Part shown: in pieces, positions 1 to 23,061 of the stretch | Layout: each line of letters begins with the position of its first letter | How positions within the stretch are numbered: the first letter of the stretch is position 1 | From: a virus | Reading direction: 5' to 3' (one strand) | IMG/VR virus record: IMGVR_UViG_3300023110_000072 | Span: 1-41,359 of that record | Length of the DNA: 41,359 bases | Notes under the pieces: model-generated | Told to the model about the DNA's origin: nothing | Databases searched by the model: none | What the model saw: the letters and a program-made list of their open reading frames with translations, nothing else | Position numbers and translations under genes: made by a program

Positions 1-539
1 GTTTTTTCAAAGTAGATATGTTTAATCATATCAGTTGGAATATGTCCACCTGTCGGAAGTACTTCGTGTCCTTCATCAAATACTAACTCCACAGTTACAG
101 TTAAGTTTGATTCATCATCCCACTCTCTTTCTTGTTCTTCCAACAATCTCCACTCACCACGATTTAAATATTGGTCTTGTAGAGCACAGTTTAGAAAAGA
201 AAAAGTTTGTCTTAGATTTTCGTAAGAATCAGAATATGTTGCCGCTGGTGCAAGATGTCCTTTATCCCAAACATTTCTATAATAATCTGCATTATCAGAT
301 GTGTGAACATCTTTTTCTGTATAAAAGTTCATTGAACCTCTATCTACATTCTTAACTCTATTAGTTGATGTATAAACCAACTTCATAGGTTGTTCGTAGA
401 TTTCATTGTACCAAACTTTAAAGACTGGATTTTCAACAATTACTTCCGCTCTTAATTCTTTTTGGGGTTCTTGAGCAAAACCCTCTTTCTCACATCCATA
501 TAATGCTAAAGATATGATTAAAATTTTCCATAGTTTCAT
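1..539 (-). CDS. DNA/RNA non-specific endonuclease, secreted lipoprotein (partial, 3' end outside window)
   Basis: I translated this by hand from the ATG at 537-539; 180 residues are visible and the frame is still open at the window edge. Residues 1-16 form a lipoprotein-type signal (MKLWKILIISLALYGC), with Cys16 as the likely lipidated residue; Tyr at -2 makes the lipobox imperfect. The mature part matches the NUC family (Serratia nuclease/NucA): DKGHLAPAATY at 92-102 corresponds to the catalytic DRGH motif with His95 as general base, and LNRGEW at 125-130 carries the metal-binding Asn126. Family members cut DNA and RNA without sequence preference using Mg2+. A signal sequence implies action outside the cytoplasm, perhaps in the periplasm. 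A GGAG ribosome site and a late-type promoter motif lie just upstream. The nuclease assignment is strong; the lipoprotein assignment is moderate. Confidence 0.88.
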   Translation of the reverse strand, partial: MKLWKILIISLALYGCEKEGFAQEPQKELRAEVIVENPVFKVWYNEIYEQPMKLVYTSTNRVKNVDRGSMNFYTEKDVHTSDNADYYRNVWDKGHLAPAATYSDSYENLRQTFSFLNCALQDQYLNRGEWRLLEEQEREWDDESNLTVTVELVFDEGHEVLPTGGHIPTDMIKHIYFEK

Positions 540-559
540 AAAAACTCCTTTTGTTAATA

Positions 560-569
560 TATAAATATT
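560..569 (-). promoter_or_regulatory. Late-type promoter motif for the nuclease gene
   Basis: The coding strand reads AATATTTATA, nine of ten matches to the TATATTTATA motif found before the structural genes. It ends 20 bases before the nuclease ATG, with AAAGGAG between. No other function is evident in the 59-base intergenic gap. Confidence 0.5.
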
Positions 570-598: not shown

Positions 599-1153
599 TT
601 ATAACATATTTTTTTCTTCTTTCTGTATGAAAGATAGTGATAGTATCACTCTTGATTTATTGCCTATTATTTTATCTGTTTGATGTACAGTATGATATGG
701 AGCAAAAACTACCATATCACCTTCATCCATAGGAAATTCTACACCATTGAATTTATAAACACCACCTTGTTCTGGTTTTTCAAGTAATACATTAAATCTA
801 AATTCTTTTGGATTGTGTGCATCTATGTGTTTTATTAAGTAATGGCCTTCTTTGAATTGTAGTAAAAAATCTCCCCAATATAATCCTTTTAAGTTTTCAA
901 AACCTTCATTTAACTTATTTTCAATACCAAATTCGTCTTTCCATTTTTCAAAAGCATATTTTCTCCATCTTTCTCCTAACTCGGTATTATAAATTTTTGG
1001 CCCTTCATATAAGATACCATACTGGTTATTATTAGGCAATCGAATCCAATCTTCATTTGGATAATTTAACAACTCCATAAATTCTTCTTTCCACTCCATA
1101 GGGAAAGCGTTTTTTATAAGAGTTATATCCCTTATGTATTTAAATTTCTCCAT
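599..1153 (-). CDS. 2-oxoglutarate/Fe(II)-dependent oxygenase
   Basis: A 184-residue protein starting at the ATG at 1151-1153. The frame is open further upstream to a TTG, but that part is the polymerase 3'-end remnant read in another frame, so I use the ATG preceded by GGGG. The double-stranded beta-helix iron site is complete: His109-x-Asp111 (KHIDAHNP), distal His157 (YHTVHQTD) and the 2-oxoglutarate-binding Arg168 (GNKSRVILS). This arrangement is typical of the prolyl-4-hydroxylase-like 2OG-Fe(II) superfamily, which hydroxylates proteins, nucleic acids or small molecules using O2 and 2-oxoglutarate. The substrate cannot be read from sequence. It lies after two glycosyltransferase-like genes and before the nuclease, suggesting an accessory or modification module. 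It appears full length for a compact phage oxygenase. Confidence 0.85.
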   Translation of the reverse strand: MEKFKYIRDITLIKNAFPMEWKEEFMELLNYPNEDWIRLPNNNQYGILYEGPKIYNTELGERWRKYAFEKWKDEFGIENKLNEGFENLKGLYWGDFLLQFKEGHYLIKHIDAHNPKEFRFNVLLEKPEQGGVYKFNGVEFPMDEGDMVVFAPYHTVHQTDKIIGNKSRVILSLSFIQKEEKNML

Positions 1154-1226
1154 AAGTTTTACCCCAATCGGCTTTGACAGGAAATCCAAAATTTTCGAGA
1201 ACGCATTTAATCTTTTTAATTGTTTC
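1140..1226 (-). pseudogene. Displaced remnant of a DNA polymerase 3' end
   Basis: Twenty-eight codons plus TAA encode ETIKKIKCVLENFGF followed by PVKADWGKTYGEI, almost the same as the last 28 residues of the polymerase encoded at 3751-5046 (21 of 28 residues identical; 75 of 87 bases by hand count). No polymerase body precedes it: directly upstream are a GGAG site, a late-type promoter motif and the end of another gene. The mostly conservative or synonymous differences suggest it came from a related polymerase allele or an old duplication rather than a recent copy. As in the intact gene, the next gene starts at an ATG inside the TAT-GGA-GAA codons (ATG at 1153). Confidence 0.85.
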
Positions 1227-1243
1227 TCCTTTGTTTGTTAGTA

Positions 1244-1253
1244 TATAAATATA
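1244..1253 (-). promoter_or_regulatory. Late-type promoter motif upstream of the polymerase remnant and oxygenase
   Basis: This is an exact coding-strand TATATTTATA. It is followed by AAAGGAG at 1226-1232, but no ATG lies at normal spacing; the position where a start would be expected is the beginning of the polymerase remnant. The oxygenase ATG is about 90 bases downstream. The promoter and ribosome site look as if they were cut off from their original gene by recombination. Confidence 0.5.
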
Positions 1254-1254
1254 G

Positions 1255-2457
1255 TTAAATTAATTCTTTCGAAGAATTTAAAACTATATCCAGATACGAG
1301 TTATTTGAGTAACAAATATCAATTAAATTTACTCGTGTTGTTTCAACCCAAGCTTTTAATTCTTCCTTCAATGATTCCCATTTGGTTTCATTAGAAACTG
1401 ATTTTTTTATTAACTCCATTAGTTCTTCAAATGATTCATAGGTAAAAGAAAGTGGATATGGGGTTTTATTATATTTTCTCTGAATTTCATTATAAAAATC
1501 AAATACCTTAAATGAAGCTGGTAAAAATAATTTACCACTTAAAATTCTAATTACTGATTTTTCACTAATATAATCCATCTCCATCCATTCATCAATTATC
1601 TCTACTTCCGCAAGAGGAAGTATTTTATAATACATTTCATGAATATTGTTTTTATTTGCTTCATTACCCCAATCGTGAATTCCATATCCTCTTTTATTGA
1701 TATAGTTTTCTTTTATAGAACTTTGAATATATTTTCTAAAATCATCTATTTCTTTATCAATTCCACTATCAACACTATCTTTAGTAAAACAATATGATGA
1801 GTATGTTATATAAACTTCTGGTATTTCTAAAAGAGAGTTTATTTGTTTAATCTTTTCTCCAATAATTCTTCTAACCGAATAACTTAATTTGTGTCGTGGT
1901 TTTATTTCTTTTAAATAATCATATAAAAAGTAAGAATGTTTTATATCTAAATTCGAATCGTGAATATATGATAAAAAATTATTTGTAAAAACATAGTGTC
2001 TATTTTTAAATTTTTTGTTTTTTAAAATTTCATCAACAAATATGTTTGAATTTTTAATTTCGTATAAATCATGTGAATGACTTATACCTTCCCAATCTAT
2101 ATAAAAAATATTTAACTTTTCACCAAGTAAATTTCCTTTTTCAATTAAATCTTTTTTTAAGGTGTATTTAAAATAATTTACTGTTTTATAGCTATATCCC
2201 CTATCTGTAATAATTCCGTTTTGCATAAGATAAGTATGTACATCAAATATATGATTCCCATCTATCTTATCCCAATCACCATCACCACAGAAATTTATTT
2301 CTAATGGAGTTTCTTTATAATTTGTATGTAAAGTTATTTTTTTATGTTGTTCTTTAAAGAAAAAAGCAGGTACATCTTTTACATCTAAATCAGTACCATG
2401 GAAAAAGTACCAAAATAAATCATTGGTGTAATTATGATGTACATAAAATTTTTTCAT
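1255..2457 (-). CDS. Glycosyltransferase-like protein, second tandem paralogue
   Basis: A 400-residue protein whose ATG overlaps the stop of the preceding paralogue (ATGA), so the two are probably translationally coupled. It aligns end to end with that neighbour: both begin with a Y(V/I)HH.YT..LFW.F.HG block, share WDK.DG.H.FD and .DRG(Y/F), both have NYINKRGYGIHDWG, and both end with a NNSY.D block. The ISEKSVIRILSGKLFLP segment corresponds to the ITEKS...GKPFIP motif of the paralogue, which resembles a motif common in glycosyltransferase-like proteins of marine phages and surface-polysaccharide clusters. No transmembrane segment or signal peptide is visible. The enzymatic role is inferred; I cannot identify donor or acceptor. 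Confidence 0.55.
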   Translation of the reverse strand: MKKFYVHHNYTNDLFWYFFHGTDLDVKDVPAFFFKEQHKKITLHTNYKETPLEINFCGDGDWDKIDGNHIFDVHTYLMQNGIITDRGYSYKTVNYFKYTLKKDLIEKGNLLGEKLNIFYIDWEGISHSHDLYEIKNSNIFVDEILKNKKFKNRHYVFTNNFLSYIHDSNLDIKHSYFLYDYLKEIKPRHKLSYSVRRIIGEKIKQINSLLEIPEVYITYSSYCFTKDSVDSGIDKEIDDFRKYIQSSIKENYINKRGYGIHDWGNEANKNNIHEMYYKILPLAEVEIIDEWMEMDYISEKSVIRILSGKLFLPASFKVFDFYNEIQRKYNKTPYPLSFTYESFEELMELIKKSVSNETKWESLKEELKAWVETTRVNLIDICYSNNSYLDIVLNSSKELI

Positions 2458-3764
2458 AATAAACTTGGAGTTTTAATTTCATTTTTTGTAATAATGTAAT
2501 CAAAATATGAATTATTTTCGTGAATTATTTCAACAAGTTGTTTTCTTAGATTTTGTACATATAATGTAAGCTTATCTAAAAACTCTTTCCATTTTACTTC
2601 ATCTTTTGTAATTTCATCTATATAATCAAGTTTATCTAATACAAAATCATATTCTAATGGAAATTCTAAAGTAGGTTTATTATAATTTTTCAACCACTTA
2701 TCATAAAAATCAATAGTAGCTCTATAAAATGGAATGAAAGGTTTTCCTACCAAAATATGTGATATTGATTTTTCAGTTATGTAATTATCTCCACTATTAG
2801 CTTTATTATTAGTTTTTTCAGAATGATGCTTTGGTGAGTGTTCGAATAAAATACATACATCTGAAATACCAAACATTTTCCACATATTTTCATTCATATT
2901 ATTTGAATTCCACTCACCACCCCAATCATGAATACCATATCCTCTTTTATTGATATAGTTTTCACTTGGCATAGAATCTAATAATTTTTTTCTAACATCA
3001 ACTTCTTTTTGTGTTTTAAATTTATCGATTTGTAACGATGATTGAAATGAAGAATTTGTTATAGATATGTGTGGGTTATTTAGTTCTAAAACTTTATCTG
3101 TTAATAATTCTTTATCACCATACAATCTTCTAATTGGAATATTAATTTTATATTTGTAATCATTTTTATATTTTAGATAATCACCAAAAAAATAATAATC
3201 TCTAATACCTAATGTATTTGGATATATAAATGACCAAATTAAGTTGGTAAATACAAAATGATGGTTTTTTACATTTTCTGCATTTGGACTAACTTCATCA
3301 ACAAAAAATTGTATATTTGGATTTAGATTTTTATACCATCCTTCCATTATATAAGGGTCATGTCCTTCCCAATCTATATAAAAGTAATGAATATTATCAG
3401 AAAGTATTGAAGCTTTTGAATTTAAAAATTTTAAATTTTTTTGATTTATTTCAACCATTATGTTTGAATTAAATCCTCTATCGGAAACTCTATTATCTTC
3501 TAATAAATTTATACTATAATCAAACAAATGAAAACCATCTGTTTTATCCCAATGCTTTTCATTACAAAAAATTACCTCGATTTTTTTTCCTTTATACTTT
3601 CCATTTAAAATTACATCATCGTTTACTTTTATATTCTTATTATGTTGATTCCATTCTTTAAACCAAGTTGGAACGGATTCAGGTTCTATTTCTAACCCAT
3701 GACAAAATAACCAAAATAATTCATAGGTATAATAATGATGTATGTAAACTTTAAACTTCTCCAT
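2454..3764 (-). CDS. Glycosyltransferase-like protein, first tandem paralogue
   Basis: A 436-residue protein starting at the ATG at 3762-3764, which lies inside the last codons of the DNA polymerase gene (TATGGAGAA). A longer frame to 3800 exists but is polymerase sequence in another frame. Residues 269-282 (NYINKRGYGIHDWG) and 329-344 (ITEKSISHILVGKPFI) are the best-conserved blocks with the tandem paralogue. The ITEK...GKPFI block followed by an aromatic-rich segment resembles the C-terminal part of fucosyltransferase/GT-B-like proteins in phage and surface-glycan clusters. It is an intact, soluble-looking protein. It could modify capsid or fibre proteins, or host surface glycans; the evidence does not choose between these. 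Confidence 0.55.
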   Translation of the reverse strand: MEKFKVYIHHYYTYELFWLFCHGLEIEPESVPTWFKEWNQHNKNIKVNDDVILNGKYKGKKIEVIFCNEKHWDKTDGFHLFDYSINLLEDNRVSDRGFNSNIMVEINQKNLKFLNSKASILSDNIHYFYIDWEGHDPYIMEGWYKNLNPNIQFFVDEVSPNAENVKNHHFVFTNLIWSFIYPNTLGIRDYYFFGDYLKYKNDYKYKINIPIRRLYGDKELLTDKVLELNNPHISITNSSFQSSLQIDKFKTQKEVDVRKKLLDSMPSENYINKRGYGIHDWGGEWNSNNMNENMWKMFGISDVCILFEHSPKHHSEKTNNKANSGDNYITEKSISHILVGKPFIPFYRATIDFYDKWLKNYNKPTLEFPLEYDFVLDKLDYIDEITKDEVKWKEFLDKLTLYVQNLRKQLVEIIHENNSYFDYIITKNEIKTPSLL

Positions 3765-3837
3765 AATTTTTACCCCAATCTGCTTTGACGGGAAATCCAT
3801 AACTTTCGAGAACGGATTTAACTAATTTAATCGTTTC
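3751..3837 (-). repeat. Direct repeat copy A (polymerase 3' end); copy B at 1140-1226
   Basis: These 87 bases, the last 28 codons and stop of the polymerase, recur in the same orientation at 1140-1226 with 75 of 87 positions matching. The two copies bracket the pair of glycosyltransferase-like genes, giving a 2.6 kb segment flanked by direct repeats. Confidence 0.85.
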
Positions 3838-5046
3838 TACCTCAGATTCATCAAACTCGAAAAGGAATGAATCATAGGTATATAATATAGGTAGAGGCAA
3901 TTGTAATTTTCTTAACTTTTCCATCACTTCAATATTAAACTCAGTTTCAGTCGCTTGAAGAAGATAATTAAAGAATTTTTGTGATGTTGGTTTTTCAATC
4001 CAACCTAAAGGAATTTTTCTTCCTTTTGGAGTTTGTAAATAACCATTTTTCACACCATCTTCTTGTATCTTTCTAATAAACTTATCAACCTTATCAAAGA
4101 ATGGAATCTTTCTATCTTCATCACTCACACCACCATAAAGGATTCTAAAGGTTCTTCCTTTGGATTCATCGTAATCACAACCATATTGGTCTGCTAACCA
4201 TTGGTGTACCGATGTATCGGGTAGTTTGTGTTTAATCAACTTACCAATAATTCGAACATGATAAGCATCGTAATCAAATTGTAAGAACAACTTACCATCT
4301 CTTGGAATAAACGATTCTCTCGAACCATCTTTCTTGTTAAGAGCAGAAAAGTTAACACCACCATGTCTATTGGATGGTCTTGAAGTTATCGTATAAGGAT
4401 TATATTCGGTGAATATATTCCCTAAAAGTAATGAGTTTTGGTGATTAGGCCATCTATCAAGAAATTTTTCCGTATCGACCCGAATACCCTTTCGTTCAAT
4501 CTGAGAAAGGATAGGAATCATCGTATTATCAATCCAAGTTGTATTGTCTTTAAGAAATTCTCTAAGATAATTTGGATGTGAAGGAGAAATATCTCCCCAT
4601 TCACCAACAATCTCTCGTAGAACCTCACCCCACTTCATTATAGGGATACTCTTACCTAAGTCATCTCTTATACCCAATCGGTAATAAAAGTTCGTTAGAA
4701 CCTCTAATTTATCACCAAAGGGGTATATTTGGTTTTGTTCAAAGAATAATGCAGTTTGAACATCTTTTAGCTTTTCAATATTGATATCGGTTTGTAAAAA
4801 ACCTTTTTTATTCCAAATCCACTTGTTTTGAGTGGAAAGAGATAAATCAATAGTTAGAGGTTCACAATCATTATGATTAAAAGGTAAGATAAAATCTATA
4901 TTTGAAAATCGGACATACAAAAATGACAACCTATTATTCATAGGATGTTTTTCTAAATCTTCCCAAATTGGAATAATCGTTGATTGTTCGTTATTCCAAT
5001 ATTCAAGAAATTGGTCTTTCTCTTTATTGGTTTCTACTATAACCAC
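3751..5046 (-). CDS. Family A DNA polymerase, short form
   Basis: A 431-residue polymerase. The family A palm/fingers motifs are visible: a TSRPSNRHGGVNFSAL block near 221-236, motif A QFDYDAYHVR with catalytic Asp258, motif B K296-x3-F300-x3-Y304-G, and motif C YTYDSF with catalytic Asp392. Compared with Pol I or T7, the motif B arginine four residues before the lysine is a tyrosine, and the motif A glutamate is a histidine. The N-terminal 150 residues resemble an exonuclease fold in outline but show no DxE catalytic pair, so proofreading is probably absent or supplied separately. The size resembles split polymerases such as that of Rhodothermus phage RM378 (recalled, not searched). Its last codons overlap the following glycosyltransferase-like gene and are duplicated at 1140-1226. 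Confidence 0.85.
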   Translation of the reverse strand: MVIVETNKEKDQFLEYWNNEQSTIIPIWEDLEKHPMNNRLSFLYVRFSNIDFILPFNHNDCEPLTIDLSLSTQNKWIWNKKGFLQTDINIEKLKDVQTALFFEQNQIYPFGDKLEVLTNFYYRLGIRDDLGKSIPIMKWGEVLREIVGEWGDISPSHPNYLREFLKDNTTWIDNTMIPILSQIERKGIRVDTEKFLDRWPNHQNSLLLGNIFTEYNPYTITSRPSNRHGGVNFSALNKKDGSRESFIPRDGKLFLQFDYDAYHVRIIGKLIKHKLPDTSVHQWLADQYGCDYDESKGRTFRILYGGVSDEDRKIPFFDKVDKFIRKIQEDGVKNGYLQTPKGRKIPLGWIEKPTSQKFFNYLLQATETEFNIEVMEKLRKLQLPLPILYTYDSFLFEFDESEVETIKLVKSVLESYGFPVKADWGKNYGEV

Positions 5047-5314: not shown

Positions 5315-5445
5315 ACTACACCTGCATTGTATTCCATAAGTATTAGTTCTGCAGTTTCTTCATCTACATACCCACTCCCATCCATATCGATGAGGTGTCC
5401 TACATAATACATTCCATCTAATTGTGTTAAATCTGTTTTTTTCAT
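5311..5445 (-). CDS. Tiny protein with an EF-hand-like loop
   Basis: A 44-residue frame beginning MKKTDLTQLDGMYYVGHL. It joins its neighbours by ATGA overlaps at both ends (with the HNH gene stop at 5442 and the next start at 5314), which is strong evidence that it is translated. Residues 20-31, DMDGSGYVDEET, fit a calcium-binding EF-hand loop: Asp at 1 and 3, Ser at 5, Gly at 6, a hydrophobic residue at 8 and Asp at 9; position 12 is Thr instead of Glu. Short flanking segments could form helices. Calcium binding is inferred from the motif alone. Confidence 0.7.
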   Translation of the reverse strand: MKKTDLTQLDGMYYVGHLIDMDGSGYVDEETAELILMEYNAGVV

Positions 5446-5900
5446 TTTATAAATCCAAGTTTTCTTTTTATATCTAACCAAGTCTCTTCATCACAATCAT
5501 TTTTCATTCTATTAAAACAAGTTAGAGTTAATTGACAGTTACCTGGTATATATCCTTTCGAACTATCTATTCTATCTACTGATATTTGTAATGAGTGATT
5601 TGGAATTAAGTTAAATCTTTCATCCATATCCCAACCACTAATTGCACACTTACCTCCTTGTAGTAACCAAAGTTTTTGAATGTATTGTTTGTCAATGGTT
5701 AATTCATGACCAAATAATTTTTGGTATTCGGCTGACGAGTAAGCTTCAAGACCTTCTTCTATTCTTTGTTTGTTTTTCTTAGTAAAGGTTTTACCACCTC
5801 CTGCTCCAAATCTAGCAGAGGTTCGTACTTTATCCCAAAGTTTATCTTCTACTATTTTGGAAATTTTTGTAATTGTTTCTGTGAAAAATGTGTTTGTCAT
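5442..5900 (-). CDS. HNH-type endonuclease
   Basis: A 152-residue protein. Residues 85-133 show an HNH/beta-beta-alpha-metal pattern: CAISGWDMD, then SVDRIDSSKGYIPGNCQL, then N130-RMK. The first His of classical HNH is Asp109 within VDRID, as in many phage HNH proteins; Asn121 and Asn130 are the other motif positions. The N-terminal 80 residues are basic and helical and probably bind DNA. Phage enzymes of this kind act as homing endonucleases or in DNA metabolism. It heads an operon (own host-like promoter at 5916-5946) with two tiny genes and the DNA polymerase, a common location for homing endonucleases. Confidence 0.8.
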   Translation of the reverse strand: MTNTFFTETITKISKIVEDKLWDKVRTSARFGAGGGKTFTKKNKQRIEEGLEAYSSAEYQKLFGHELTIDKQYIQKLWLLQGGKCAISGWDMDERFNLIPNHSLQISVDRIDSSKGYIPGNCQLTLTCFNRMKNDCDEETWLDIKRKLGFIK

Positions 5901-8737: not shown

Positions 8738-9489
8738 TATATTTTTGCTGAACCAACATCAATTGGTTCTCTTTTCATATGATTACCTGTTGAGAAATCT
8801 GAACCTTCTTTTACATATCCTGTTAAGAATGCTTTTCTAAATCTTGTAGAATTGTTAGCTTCAGACCCATGCACTACATTAGAATGCAATAATGCTACTT
8901 GACCTTTTCGTAGATACCCATCTATTTTTTTAAAACCATGGTCTGGTGGTAATACACAAGGTTTTCCTCTTTCGTTTTTCCAATTCTTTGGATTTGATTT
9001 TGTTCTTTCATCATCAATTTCAATAGGCAATCTTCCTAATAAGTGAGAACCTTCTAAATACCAAACAGAACCATTGTTAGGGTCATGGTTATCAAAAGCA
9101 AGAGAAATATTTACAATTTCATTTCTATTACATTGGGTATAAAATATATTTTGGTGTTGGTCTCTACCTAATTGTCCTGGTGGTTTAAAATAAGCCCATG
9201 TTTGTACAGCAAATATTTTACCTTGCATTAAAAATTCACAAGCTTCTATAATTTTAGGATGTTTCATTAATTCAGAAAGTTTATCTGAATCTTTATGTGG
9301 ATACATATATGGGTCATATTCTCCCCACTGTCCATCTGTATCATTTTCTTGTCTTTGGACTCTGATTCGTTCTAATTCCTCAGCATAAAAATCTACTTCT
9401 TCCTCTGTTAATAGATTTAAAATAGATACTCCTTTGTATCTCCAATCAAAAAGTAGTTGTTGTTTTTCTTCGTGTGATAAATAACCCAT
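8737..9489 (-). CDS. Phytanoyl-CoA dioxygenase (PhyH)-like protein
   Basis: A 250-residue protein of the PhyH branch of 2-oxoglutarate/Fe(II) oxygenases. Visible blocks are FKPPGQLGRDQHQNIFY at 101-117, FDNHDPNNGSVWYLEGSH at 132-149 (typical NG.. ..GSH strand), and HSNVVHGSEANNSTRFRKAF at 202-221 with distal His207 and an Arg at 216 or 218 for the co-substrate. The first iron-binding pair reads His112-Gln-Asn114, not HxD, so one canonical ligand is altered or the pairing is shifted. It forms a pair with the SGNH gene. A role in modifying a sugar or lipid on the virion or host is possible but inferred. Confidence 0.75.
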   Translation of the reverse strand: MGYLSHEEKQQLLFDWRYKGVSILNLLTEEEVDFYAEELERIRVQRQENDTDGQWGEYDPYMYPHKDSDKLSELMKHPKIIEACEFLMQGKIFAVQTWAYFKPPGQLGRDQHQNIFYTQCNRNEIVNISLAFDNHDPNNGSVWYLEGSHLLGRLPIEIDDERTKSNPKNWKNERGKPCVLPPDHGFKKIDGYLRKGQVALLHSNVVHGSEANNSTRFRKAFLTGYVKEGSDFSTGNHMKREPIDVGSAKI

Positions 9490-9521
9490 GTAACCTAATT
9501 TTTAGTTTATATCTATATATA

Positions 9522-9917
9522 TTACGATTTGTAAAATTGTAATAAATTTGGTAAGTATAATTTTAAATTTGGAATTTCTTTTGATAAAAGTTGTATTGCT
9601 ATTCTATTTGATTCTGATACTGATTTATCAAGAATATTTCCCTTATCATCATATTGTGTTTCTTTAGGTCCTTTTATTCTCCAATCTAAACTTACTACTC
9701 TATAAAATGGATTTGTTAGATAGTTACTAAATTGAATTGAATTTATCTCATAAATAGGAGAACCTTTATCATTTGATTTTTGACAAAAAAACCGCGTTAT
9801 ATATCCTCTTGTATAATCAATTTCATTTGGAGTAGGTATATGAGTTTTTACTCTTATCCTATTAAAAGAGTGTTTTTGATTTGTCAACTCATTATATTTA
9901 TCTACTATATTTTTCAT
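9522..9917 (-). CDS. Putative virion-associated protein, 131 aa
   Basis: I do not recognise the family. The protein starts MKNIVDKYNELTNQKHSF and contains a beta-rich segment (YTRGYITRFFCQKSND, FYRVVSLDWRIKGP) and a C-terminal helix that ends LPNLLQFYKS. Its start codon overlaps the end of the hub-like gene by one base, placing it as the last gene of the tail operon. A structural or tail-assembly role is inferred from position only. Confidence 0.6.
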   Translation of the reverse strand: MKNIVDKYNELTNQKHSFNRIRVKTHIPTPNEIDYTRGYITRFFCQKSNDKGSPIYEINSIQFSNYLTNPFYRVVSLDWRIKGPKETQYDDKGNILDKSVSESNRIAIQLLSKEIPNLKLYLPNLLQFYKS

Positions 9918-12322
9918 TATGAGAAATTTCTTAACTTTCCTTTAACTTTAGTTTTCCATAAACCACCCCCAAGTTCGTGTCCTACTTCTACCACTTGAAA
10001 GGCACTTTGTTTAAATTTCGCAGGTAAATCTTTTATCTTAAATATTTGACCTGTTACAATTCCTGTTATTCCAAATGTTTCAAATTCAAAACTTATTGGA
10101 ATAAGTACATTTGTAGATGATTCAGTTGTTGCTTTTGATAATAATTTAAATAAAGCTCTATCAGTCCAACCAGCTACCAGTAAAACGGATTCCGCTTCTG
10201 CATTCGCAGTATTAAAATTTATCCAAGTACTTCCTTCGGTAATATCATAATCACCATTTCTATCTTTTACTCCAGTAATTACTTTTCCATATTGTAAAAA
10301 TAATTCAAAATTAGCTTTTCTTATTTCATCCTCATCTGGTGTTTCTTCTTCATCACCTGTTTCATCAGCTGGTTCTTTTTCAGGTTTAAATGAATTTAAA
10401 ATTGATAAGACAGGGTCTTGTTCTACATTGAAAATATTTGATAACTTTACATTAGTTGCACCATCACTATTCGTATTAACACTCGTTGAATTTCTTTGAC
10501 CTATTATTGAATTTTTCATCGCAGCTGGTAAATCCATATCAAAGTTTGAAGTTAAAAATGGTGTGTCTACTCCACTTGACACAAATTTAGGACATTCATC
10601 AAATAAACTTCTATCAGGTGAACAAAGTGTATTATCATAAACTTCAAGTTGATTATCTGCATCTTGTTTATTAGGAGTTTGAGCTATTTCAAAATACCAA
10701 TAATTATCAACTGCGGATGCAATACCATTTAAAAGTTCTAAATATATATCTTTTATAACAACATTATTTCTTCCCAATACTTCACAGAAAAATTCAAAAT
10801 TAACAAACAAGTCTTTTAAATATCCGTAAGTATGTGCTTCAAAATCTTGAGTTATTGTACCATCTGGCCATTTATATTCATTTAAGGGTTTGACCTGTGG
10901 AAAACACATATCATCCTCTATGTCAAATTGGTCTAAATCCGCAGTTTCTTCAGGTACTCCATTTTTTATCGAAAGAAATGGTGAATTTCCTTCAACCTCC
11001 GATGTTGATGATAATGCCTTTATCAAATCAAATGCAGGTGTATTTCTATTTGGTATAAATACTTTAGAAACATCAGTAGAAAACATATGTTTAAATCCTC
11101 TACACAATGTGTAATTGGTTTCTATTTTAAAATTCATAGGTTTTACACCAGAACAAGGTGGTGCGTTATCTGTACGCTCTGTTAAATCTACTGCATAAGA
11201 ATTTAAAATTTCAAAAGCAAGTTCTAATCTTATAAAACTCGAAGTATCAAAAATTTGGATACCTGATGGAATTTTAGCATTATAATCATTTTTTTTAGAA
11301 TTTATACTTTGTCCTTCTAATTTTTCTGTTAAAGTTTCTCGGATTTTTTCATCCATATTAATAAAATTACCTTTATGGGCCCAACCCTTTCCCCTACTAT
11401 CTTTACCCACAGTCAATAAATTTTTAACTTTTTGTGTTTGTTTTTCTTGAGGTAATCTATTAAACATTTGCATAAAAAGAGAACGGCCAATAAAATAATC
11501 AATTCCTTTAGCATAAAACCGTTGTTGTGCTTTAATTTTTGATTTTGAAAATTTTAATCCTCCTTTTGGTTTGTTATCCGCATCAACATCACCACCTTTA
11601 TGTTGTTGTAAAAATGCTGGTATTTCTCCTATTGTTGTAAGTTCAACATCTAATATATAAGTTTCACCCTCTGAATTTTTTAAACCACTCTTGGTTATAA
11701 AACCAAGATATCCACTATATTTGTAATCTGAGTTTTGTTCCTTTTCTTTAACATGAATAAAATTATTATACTTTGCCATTTCACATGCACCATTACTAAG
11801 AGTTAAAGATGCCTTTTGTTGAAGTGATTTTGGGTGATTCCAACCATATTCAACTAATACTGTATATCCTGGTTCTGCAAAGTATTTCTGAAGTGTTTCA
11901 GCTTGTTTTAATGTAAAGGCCTTGATAGAAAAATTAGTTTTTCTTGATAATCCACCTGCACCAAATGTTAAACTTAAAGCATCAATTGTAGGTGATGGTC
12001 TAAATATTCTATCTGTTTCAGGTGTTCTTTGAACTGAATATGATTCTTTTTTACCAGCCTTTGTTGTTGTAACTGATTCTGAAAATGCATAAACATTGTT
12101 TCCTCCAAAATCTACACCAACTCTACCAGATTTACCACTATCACCGTAAGTATCCACAAAGGCATTTGATGAATTAATAGATTCAAGTATCAATCCATTA
12201 TTATAAGCAGATGCAATTCTTAACCACGGCATATATTCACTTACTTCTCTATTATTACCGCTTCGGTCGTTTAATAGTTTAGTAACACCTGGTTCGAAAT
12301 TTGATAAGTTTGGAAATAACAT
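9917..12322 (-). CDS. Putative baseplate hub protein
   Basis: An 801-residue protein, last large gene of the tail block. The N-terminal region is beta-rich (LILESINSSNAFVDTYG; FTLKQAETLQKYF; YTVLVEYGWNHP), and the C-terminus, KIKDLPAKFKQSAFQVVEVGH then LWKTKVKGKLRN, resembles the end of hub proteins such as T4 gp27/P2 gpD, where a strand VxxVxH..... W.T is conserved. A Glu/Asp-rich linker (DETGDEEETPDEDE) lies near 655-670. Position after the LysM protein agrees with a hub or hub-attached baseplate role. It is longer than gp27 (about 390 aa), so it could be a fusion. Moderate confidence in the name. Confidence 0.5.
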   Translation of the reverse strand: MLFPNLSNFEPGVTKLLNDRSGNNREVSEYMPWLRIASAYNNGLILESINSSNAFVDTYGDSGKSGRVGVDFGGNNVYAFSESVTTTKAGKKESYSVQRTPETDRIFRPSPTIDALSLTFGAGGLSRKTNFSIKAFTLKQAETLQKYFAEPGYTVLVEYGWNHPKSLQQKASLTLSNGACEMAKYNNFIHVKEKEQNSDYKYSGYLGFITKSGLKNSEGETYILDVELTTIGEIPAFLQQHKGGDVDADNKPKGGLKFSKSKIKAQQRFYAKGIDYFIGRSLFMQMFNRLPQEKQTQKVKNLLTVGKDSRGKGWAHKGNFINMDEKIRETLTEKLEGQSINSKKNDYNAKIPSGIQIFDTSSFIRLELAFEILNSYAVDLTERTDNAPPCSGVKPMNFKIETNYTLCRGFKHMFSTDVSKVFIPNRNTPAFDLIKALSSTSEVEGNSPFLSIKNGVPEETADLDQFDIEDDMCFPQVKPLNEYKWPDGTITQDFEAHTYGYLKDLFVNFEFFCEVLGRNNVVIKDIYLELLNGIASAVDNYWYFEIAQTPNKQDADNQLEVYDNTLCSPDRSLFDECPKFVSSGVDTPFLTSNFDMDLPAAMKNSIIGQRNSTSVNTNSDGATNVKLSNIFNVEQDPVLSILNSFKPEKEPADETGDEEETPDEDEIRKANFELFLQYGKVITGVKDRNGDYDITEGSTWINFNTANAEAESVLLVAGWTDRALFKLLSKATTESSTNVLIPISFEFETFGITGIVTGQIFKIKDLPAKFKQSAFQVVEVGHELGGGLWKTKVKGKLRNFS

Positions 12323-19583: not shown

Positions 19584-19607
19584 ATAACTTTAATTTAAAT
19601 TGTTTTA

Positions 19608-19617
19608 TATAAATATA
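19608..19617 (-). promoter_or_regulatory. Late-type promoter motif for the gp26-like gene
   Basis: This is an exact coding-strand TATATTTATA, 24 bases before the ATG at 19583 and just downstream of the terminator at 19647-19676. Confidence 0.65.
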
Positions 19618-23017: not shown

Positions 23018-23051
23018 TTTGATATATTTTATTTAATGTTTTGTTTATATA

Positions 23052-23061
23052 TATAAATATA
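23052..23061 (-). promoter_or_regulatory. Late-type promoter motif for the coiled-coil gene
   Basis: This is an exact coding-strand TATATTTATA, 34 bases before the ATG at 23017. The gene itself lacks a clear GGAG. Confidence 0.6.

Follow-up and report, generated by a model that had tools for sequence, protein, structure and literature searches.

Why should the 3' end of a DNA polymerase gene be present twice in a phage genome, with two glycosyltransferase-like genes between the copies? This question is raised by the window analyzed here, i.e. the whole stretch of 41,359 nucleotides of the IMG/VR record IMGVR_UViG_3300023110_000072. An earlier note, made from the sequence alone, had taken the arrangement for a cassette that entered at the end of the polymerase gene and supplied it with a new 3' end while leaving the old one stranded, similar in effect to integrative elements that restore the gene they enter.

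The duplicated polymerase tail

The 87-bp duplicate described in that note is a real copy. The two tails form an ungapped repeat pair of 89 nt with 87% identity and a spacing of 2611 bp, and over the last 28 polymerase codons and the stop they agree at 75 of 87 positions; a blastn search of the region of the second copy against the whole 41-kb record retrieved only itself and positions 3741-3838 (E = 2.1e-26), which excludes chance. The identical arrangement is found in a second IMG/VR record, IMGVR_UViG_3300022939_000017 (L003), which overlaps the window over 13,046 bp with 3 mismatches, thereby arguing against misassembly. It was likewise correct that the next gene starts, at both copies, at the ATG within TAT-GGA-GAA, and both products begin with MEKFK. 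The strand has to be amended, given that every gene concerned lies on the minus strand (Table 1).

What had been called the polymerase matches a DNA polymerase family of PHROG but comprises only the family A-like C-terminal part, its Pfam match (DNA_pol_A) being below the cut-off; the oxygenase is recognized by its PHROG profile and weakly by Pfam (2OG-FeII_Oxy_3). GT1 and GT2 are paralogues belonging to a small family, with no meaningful match when compared with Pfam. The structure model of a GT (pLDDT 76.6, pTM 0.81) has its best PDB matches among GT-B-type proteins, with E about 1e-5 but TM of only 0.3-0.4, and resembles, with modest scores, trehalose-6-phosphate synthase and viral RfaG/exostosin types; glycosyltransferase-like appears to be a fair label. 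Sequence searches of solved structures with the GT profile, the oxygenase and the L018 protein described below gave nothing useful.

The stranded tail differs at 7 of 88 positions from the tail of the relative L009, at 9 from that of L026 and at 12 from that of the window's own polymerase, and it shares with L009 and L026 a KKIK block that is absent from the window's own polymerase. Five of the seven differences from L009 are amino-acid-changing. This divergence is as expected for a tail that would have been copied from another allele and released from selection on the polymerase.

Table 1. Features of the polymerase-nuclease region of the window
Feature	Position	Strand	Basis or remark
DNA/RNA non-specific nuclease, truncated by record end	3..539	-	PF01223 4.2e-17; synteny
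TATTTATATA element ahead of nuclease	558..567	-	
2OG-Fe(II) oxygenase-like gene, MEKFK start	599..1153	-	PF13640 E 0.015; PHROG_13746 2.8e-10
Stranded polymerase tail (repeat copy 2), without joined polymerase	1139..1227	-	contains oxygenase ATG
Orphan TATTTATATA element	1242..1251	-	counterpart is the nuclease promoter after GT2 in L008
GT2, paralogue of GT1 (36% identical)	1255..2457	-	
GT1, glycosyltransferase-like (GT-B-like predicted fold)	2454..3764	-	MEKFK start inside polymerase tail
Functional polymerase tail (repeat copy 1)	3750..3838	-	repeat comparison; includes GT1's ATG
DNA polymerase (family A-like, C-terminal part), 431 aa	3751..5046	-	PHROG_17 1.8e-17; Pfam DNA_pol_A 7.6e-5
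Endo VII/HNH-like endonuclease gene	5442..5900	-	PHROG_3322 4.3e-20

The polymerase-nuclease junction in relatives

A search of IMG/VR with the polymerase gave 57 loci at 58-100% identity, in a group of mostly marine phages. Where the downstream region is present, the order is, by direct observation, polymerase, optional cargo, TATTTATATA element and non-specific nuclease (about 49 relatives), the one clear exception being L024, in which no nuclease was found; synteny thus makes the nuclease gene the right-hand border of the cargo site. The distance from the polymerase stop to the nuclease start is 14-40 nt in most genomes, also behind polymerases that are only about 43% identical, so that the empty site is most likely the basic state and the genes found in between have been inserted. 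Bacterial genomes scanned with the polymerase yielded one fragment, from a Flammeovirgaceae MAG, in which the site is empty. The host of the phage is likely to belong to the Bacteroidota.

Cargo occupies the junction in 16 of the 49 relatives that retain the polymerase end. It consists of one to three GT-like genes (L007, L008, L009, L055), sulfotransferase-like genes (L020, L021 and L026, and together with GTs in L006; assigned by sequence inspection, with no Pfam match), a QueC-like gene (L022), GT8-like genes (L030, L033 and L036, by sequence inspection), an SGNH hydrolase (L038), a LamG protein (L052), an HNH endonuclease with a radical SAM protein (L032) or a GIY-YIG-type protein (L018). 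These are directly observed, independent alleles, gained or lost at least five times on a tree of the polymerase body from which the last 40 codons had been left out, and the junction appears to act as a site of cargo exchange. A search for more stranded tails, up- or downstream in the other relatives and in more distant polymerases, found none.

An occupied and an empty site in nearly the same virus

An independent case is provided by L018 and L118, in which a 594-aa gene starts 6 nt past the polymerase stop and takes its TAA stop codon from the opening triplet of a 70-nt copy of the polymerase tail that lies stranded behind it (11043-11112 in L018), after which come the normal promoter and the nuclease; L115 covers the right side of this structure. 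Nearly the same virus with an empty site is represented by L093, which is identical at 295 of 295 positions on the left and at 99.2-99.4% on the right, so that presence and absence are polymorphic at a fixed site in near-identical genomes. The tail copies of L018 differ at 2 of 70 nt (97% identical); the proximal copy equals the empty L093 tail, whereas the stranded one changes S to Y and P to R at conserved positions. The part of the cassette proposal according to which an insertion strands the old 3' end is borne out directly by this pair of occupied and empty genomes.

For the L018 protein, the match to GIY-YIG is weak (PF01541, E = 0.0023, under the curated cut-off), and there is also a match to PHROG_20046; its single-sequence structure model was unusable (pLDDT 38). 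Relatives of the protein occur in jumbo and Rhizobium phages, where some are annotated as GIY-YIG and are found at as many as seven positions in one genome, a multi-copy occurrence that resembles the behavior of homing endonucleases; the insert is a probable homing endonuclease gene. In the window, about 0.4 kb separate the polymerase from an upstream Endo VII/HNH-like gene, which occupies that place in no other relative and is a possible free-standing homing endonuclease.

Tails and cargo

Where a cargo gene starts inside polymerase codons, its transfer to a genome with a different tail requires that the tail be transferred too, and the tails of cargo-bearing genomes often do differ from those of their closest empty relatives. 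L009, with three GTs, and the empty L016 are sisters in the polymerase body with 100/100 support, but their last 30 nt are 73% identical as against 83-98% over most of the rest; the same 30 nt of L009 are 100% identical to the functional tail of the window and of cargo-bearing L003, and 97% identical to L026. Tails ending in YGE are found in 8 of 10 cargo-bearing and in 1 of 14 empty genomes (Fisher p = 0.0005), figures that comprise only about four independent contrasts, with three pairs for, none against and a sign test that is not significant. A reason for such an association can be read from the sequence, in that GT translation starts at an ATG within the tail and the empty-type tail TACTCAAAA has none.

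The notion that the polymerase tail is an unusually DNA-conserved recombination anchor was not borne out when it was compared with the rest of the gene; the tail stretch from -60 to -30 is 93-100% identical in nearly all compared pairs.

Origin of the second tail

Relevant to the window is L008, in which the same GT1-GT2 pair is followed directly by promoter and nuclease, both the second tail and the oxygenase being absent, and in which the spacer after GT2 (TTAATCTATATTTATATATTAACA) matches that of the window (TTAACTATATTTATATACTAACA). The TATTTATATA element occurs five times in the window, always on the gene strand, as compared to 0.92 expected in shuffles; four of these promoter-like elements are followed within some tens of nt by a gene start, and the fifth, an orphan directly visible between GT2 and the stranded tail, precedes that tail only. 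A MEKFK start read from the tail is shared by GT1, the oxygenase and an unrelated SGNH protein of L108, and GT2, which does not adjoin a polymerase tail, lacks it; the tail-derived start of the oxygenase suggests that this gene probably once stood directly behind a polymerase. Given that the segment ends in an orphan nuclease promoter, a fusion fits better than the arrival of a free cassette, and we regard the window as the probable outcome of a fusion between two cargo alleles at a cargo-exchange site.

Such a fusion may be pictured as follows. Ancestrally, no more than about 14-40 nt would have lain between the polymerase stop and the nuclease gene with its promoter, and optional genes would have been inserted between this stop and the nuclease promoter, several of them starting in the last polymerase codons. 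Allele A, of the type directly observed in L008, would have comprised polymerase, GT1, GT2 and the nuclease promoter/leader, and a postulated allele B the polymerase tail, oxygenase, promoter and nuclease. The leader of A (TATTTATATACTAACAAACAAAGGAG) would then have been joined, near 1227/1228, to the polymerase gene of B 28 codons ahead of its stop. This recombination would have needed little or no homology and would presumably have taken place at co-infection, through either a single crossover or a one-sided repair or gene conversion, which would look alike. The scar visible at 1140-1226 would be the remnant of B's polymerase end, no longer polymerase-coding but with last bases that still give the oxygenase its start. 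Homing-endonuclease breaks near the polymerase end might promote such exchanges, as L018 suggests. Several observations count against the fusion. The relative with polymerase followed by oxygenase and no GT pair, for which the earlier note had advised a search, would correspond to allele B, and an IMG/VR search with the oxygenase yielded the twin record only; the window's polymerase body has no clear grouping with L008, so that the parent lineages cannot be named; the microhomology at the junction, judged by eye, is 2-3 nt only; and no endonuclease was found within the duplicated segment.

The possible driver of a fusion leads to a reading that is compatible with it, namely a homing-type element as in fungal mitochondria, whereby a free-standing endonuclease cuts the polymerase tail in a genome with an empty site, repair copies the donor's tail together with the cargo and the cut end of the recipient is attached behind them, so that its tail is stranded, the window's endonuclease having acted in trans or been lost. 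L018/L118 display such an outcome around a GIY-YIG-type gene, an HNH gene occupies the same site in L032, a sporadic Endo VII/HNH-like gene lies upstream of the window's polymerase, and carboxy-terminal duplications behind endonuclease ORFs are on record (PMC3630166). We consider it a possibility to be taken seriously although not the expected one, because the window's inserted segment has no endonuclease, the breakpoints are unequal (70 nt versus 86-89 nt from the end) and the L018 tails are so similar that donor and recipient are not separable. If, conversely, the phage had merely duplicated its own polymerase tail in tandem with later drift, the repeat would be direct and in register, as it is, and the mere 2/70 differences between the L018 copies would be accommodated; this is nonetheless very unlikely for the window, where the stranded copy shares KKIK with L009/L026 rather than with its own polymerase, an orphan promoter-like element precedes it and the gene that follows it is absent from all other relatives.

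Hardly credible is a discrete integrative cassette with a replacement 3' end, like the islands that an integrase moves and that reconstitute their target gene. The direct-repeat architecture and the different tails of cargo-bearing and empty relatives are what it would predict; however, the identified cargo includes no integrase or other recombinase in any relative, cargo, break position and repeat length are unequal between the window and the L018 cases, most cargo alleles lack a second tail and the GT pair stands directly ahead of the nuclease in L008, so that the likeness drawn in the earlier note does not hold. A different proposal, that the second tail is retained because the oxygenase needs it as a leader or for the initiation of translation, draws on the position of the oxygenase ATG inside a tail that itself follows a promoter-like element. 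It is rather unlikely, in that the start needs only the last 12 nt or so and most differences from L009 alter the amino acid, and it would account for the retention of the tail but not for its origin.

Relation to known systems

Extra genes located between conserved core genes, brought there by recombination with little homology, are familiar from moron and mosaic exchange in tailed phages. What sets the present site apart is that it is tied to a single gene end and recurrently reused, and that the start codon of the cargo may sit in the core gene.

The nearest known parallel of the phage scar appears to be the gene hybrids of fungal mitochondria (atp6 in Allomyces; atp6, atp9, cox2 and nad3 in Glomus), which arose from mobile endonuclease ORFs and carry a carboxy-terminal duplication behind the inserted ORF that gave the new C-terminus (PMC3630166). 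In the phages, too, an essential gene carries an insertion at its 3' end, which would have supplied a new C-terminus and left the native one stranded behind it, and the duplicated C-terminal part lies beyond the insertion in the window as well as in L018; the latter, with a GIY-YIG-type ORF between its tail copies, fits the pattern closely. For the window, a comparison of foreign and native tails is limited to 87 bp, too few for an assignment, and has no close empty relative to draw on. In contrast to the fungal hybrids, the genes between the copies in the window are two GT-like, modification-type genes with no endonuclease ORF, the target is a phage DNA polymerase gene and the second tail also supplies the start of the gene behind it. 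The window thus resembles the product of a hybrid-type event in sharing its scar without an endonuclease in the segment, a resemblance that falls short of identifying it as one.

In a literature search that was not complete, no account of this arrangement in phages came to light. We tentatively suggest that the polymerase 3' end might serve as a homing-driven exchange platform, where endonuclease genes and auxiliary genes would be rivals for a single site, each bringing its own replacement tail, and where selfish breaks would carry auxiliary cargo through the phage population and sometimes stack two alleles, as in the window. The locus is likely to be a phage counterpart of mitochondrial C-terminal replacement elements, with the benefit of a near-identical pair of occupied and empty genomes; it offers a concrete test system for how homing endonucleases and auxiliary genes share a landing site, and the stranded polymerase tail offers a recognizable scar by which cargo exchange may be spotted in other phages.

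In T4-like and other phages, HEG islands and genes of free-standing homing endonucleases are also located next to essential genes such as that of DNA polymerase, flanking DNA being exchanged by break repair, and the portions of these accounts considered here describe no stranded duplicates of the target's end (PMC2988022, PMC10448857); unlike those islands, the present phages use the same site for cargo that is not an endonuclease. A tandem rearrangement at short homology linked to a homing endonuclease is likewise known from the segmental amplification associated with SegB in phage T6 (PMC13096335), which consists of copies of one unit, whereas the window would combine two different cargo alleles.

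Conserved and repeated sequence elements

The polymerase gene contains a 30-nt block, GTCGATANNRAAAAATTTNTTGATAGATGG, that exhibits almost no variation, wobble positions included: within an eight-codon window of the block the same codon is used at 96%, against a mean of 59% for the polymerase gene. Exact matches to it are present in 82 IMG/VR stretches. Each of the newly retrieved loci that were checked has the block at the same codon position of its polymerase gene, even where the proteins are only about 40% identical. This conservation at the nucleotide level suggests that the block is a DNA-level element.

A second sequence, TATTTATATA, is present five times on the gene strand of the window (0.9 expected), with a gene starting shortly downstream of four of the five copies, and is probably a phage promoter element.

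Coordinates of the two elements in the window
Element	Positions	Strand	Location
GTCGATANNRAAAAATTTNTTGATAGATGG (30 nt)	4450-4479	minus	polymerase codons 190-199
TATTTATATA	558-567, 1242-1251, 19606-19615, 23050-23059, 39712-39721	gene strand	

Neighboring genes

An Endo VII/HNH-like endonuclease gene lies near the polymerase (window 5442-5900), and no such gene was found at that position in any other relative. In the relative L032, an HNH endonuclease (9282-10352) immediately follows the polymerase stop and is itself followed by a radical SAM gene. Long genes of varying length (clusters c4 and c10) stand between the nuclease and cluster c1 in L047, L023 and L044, suggesting a second variable region downstream of the nuclease.
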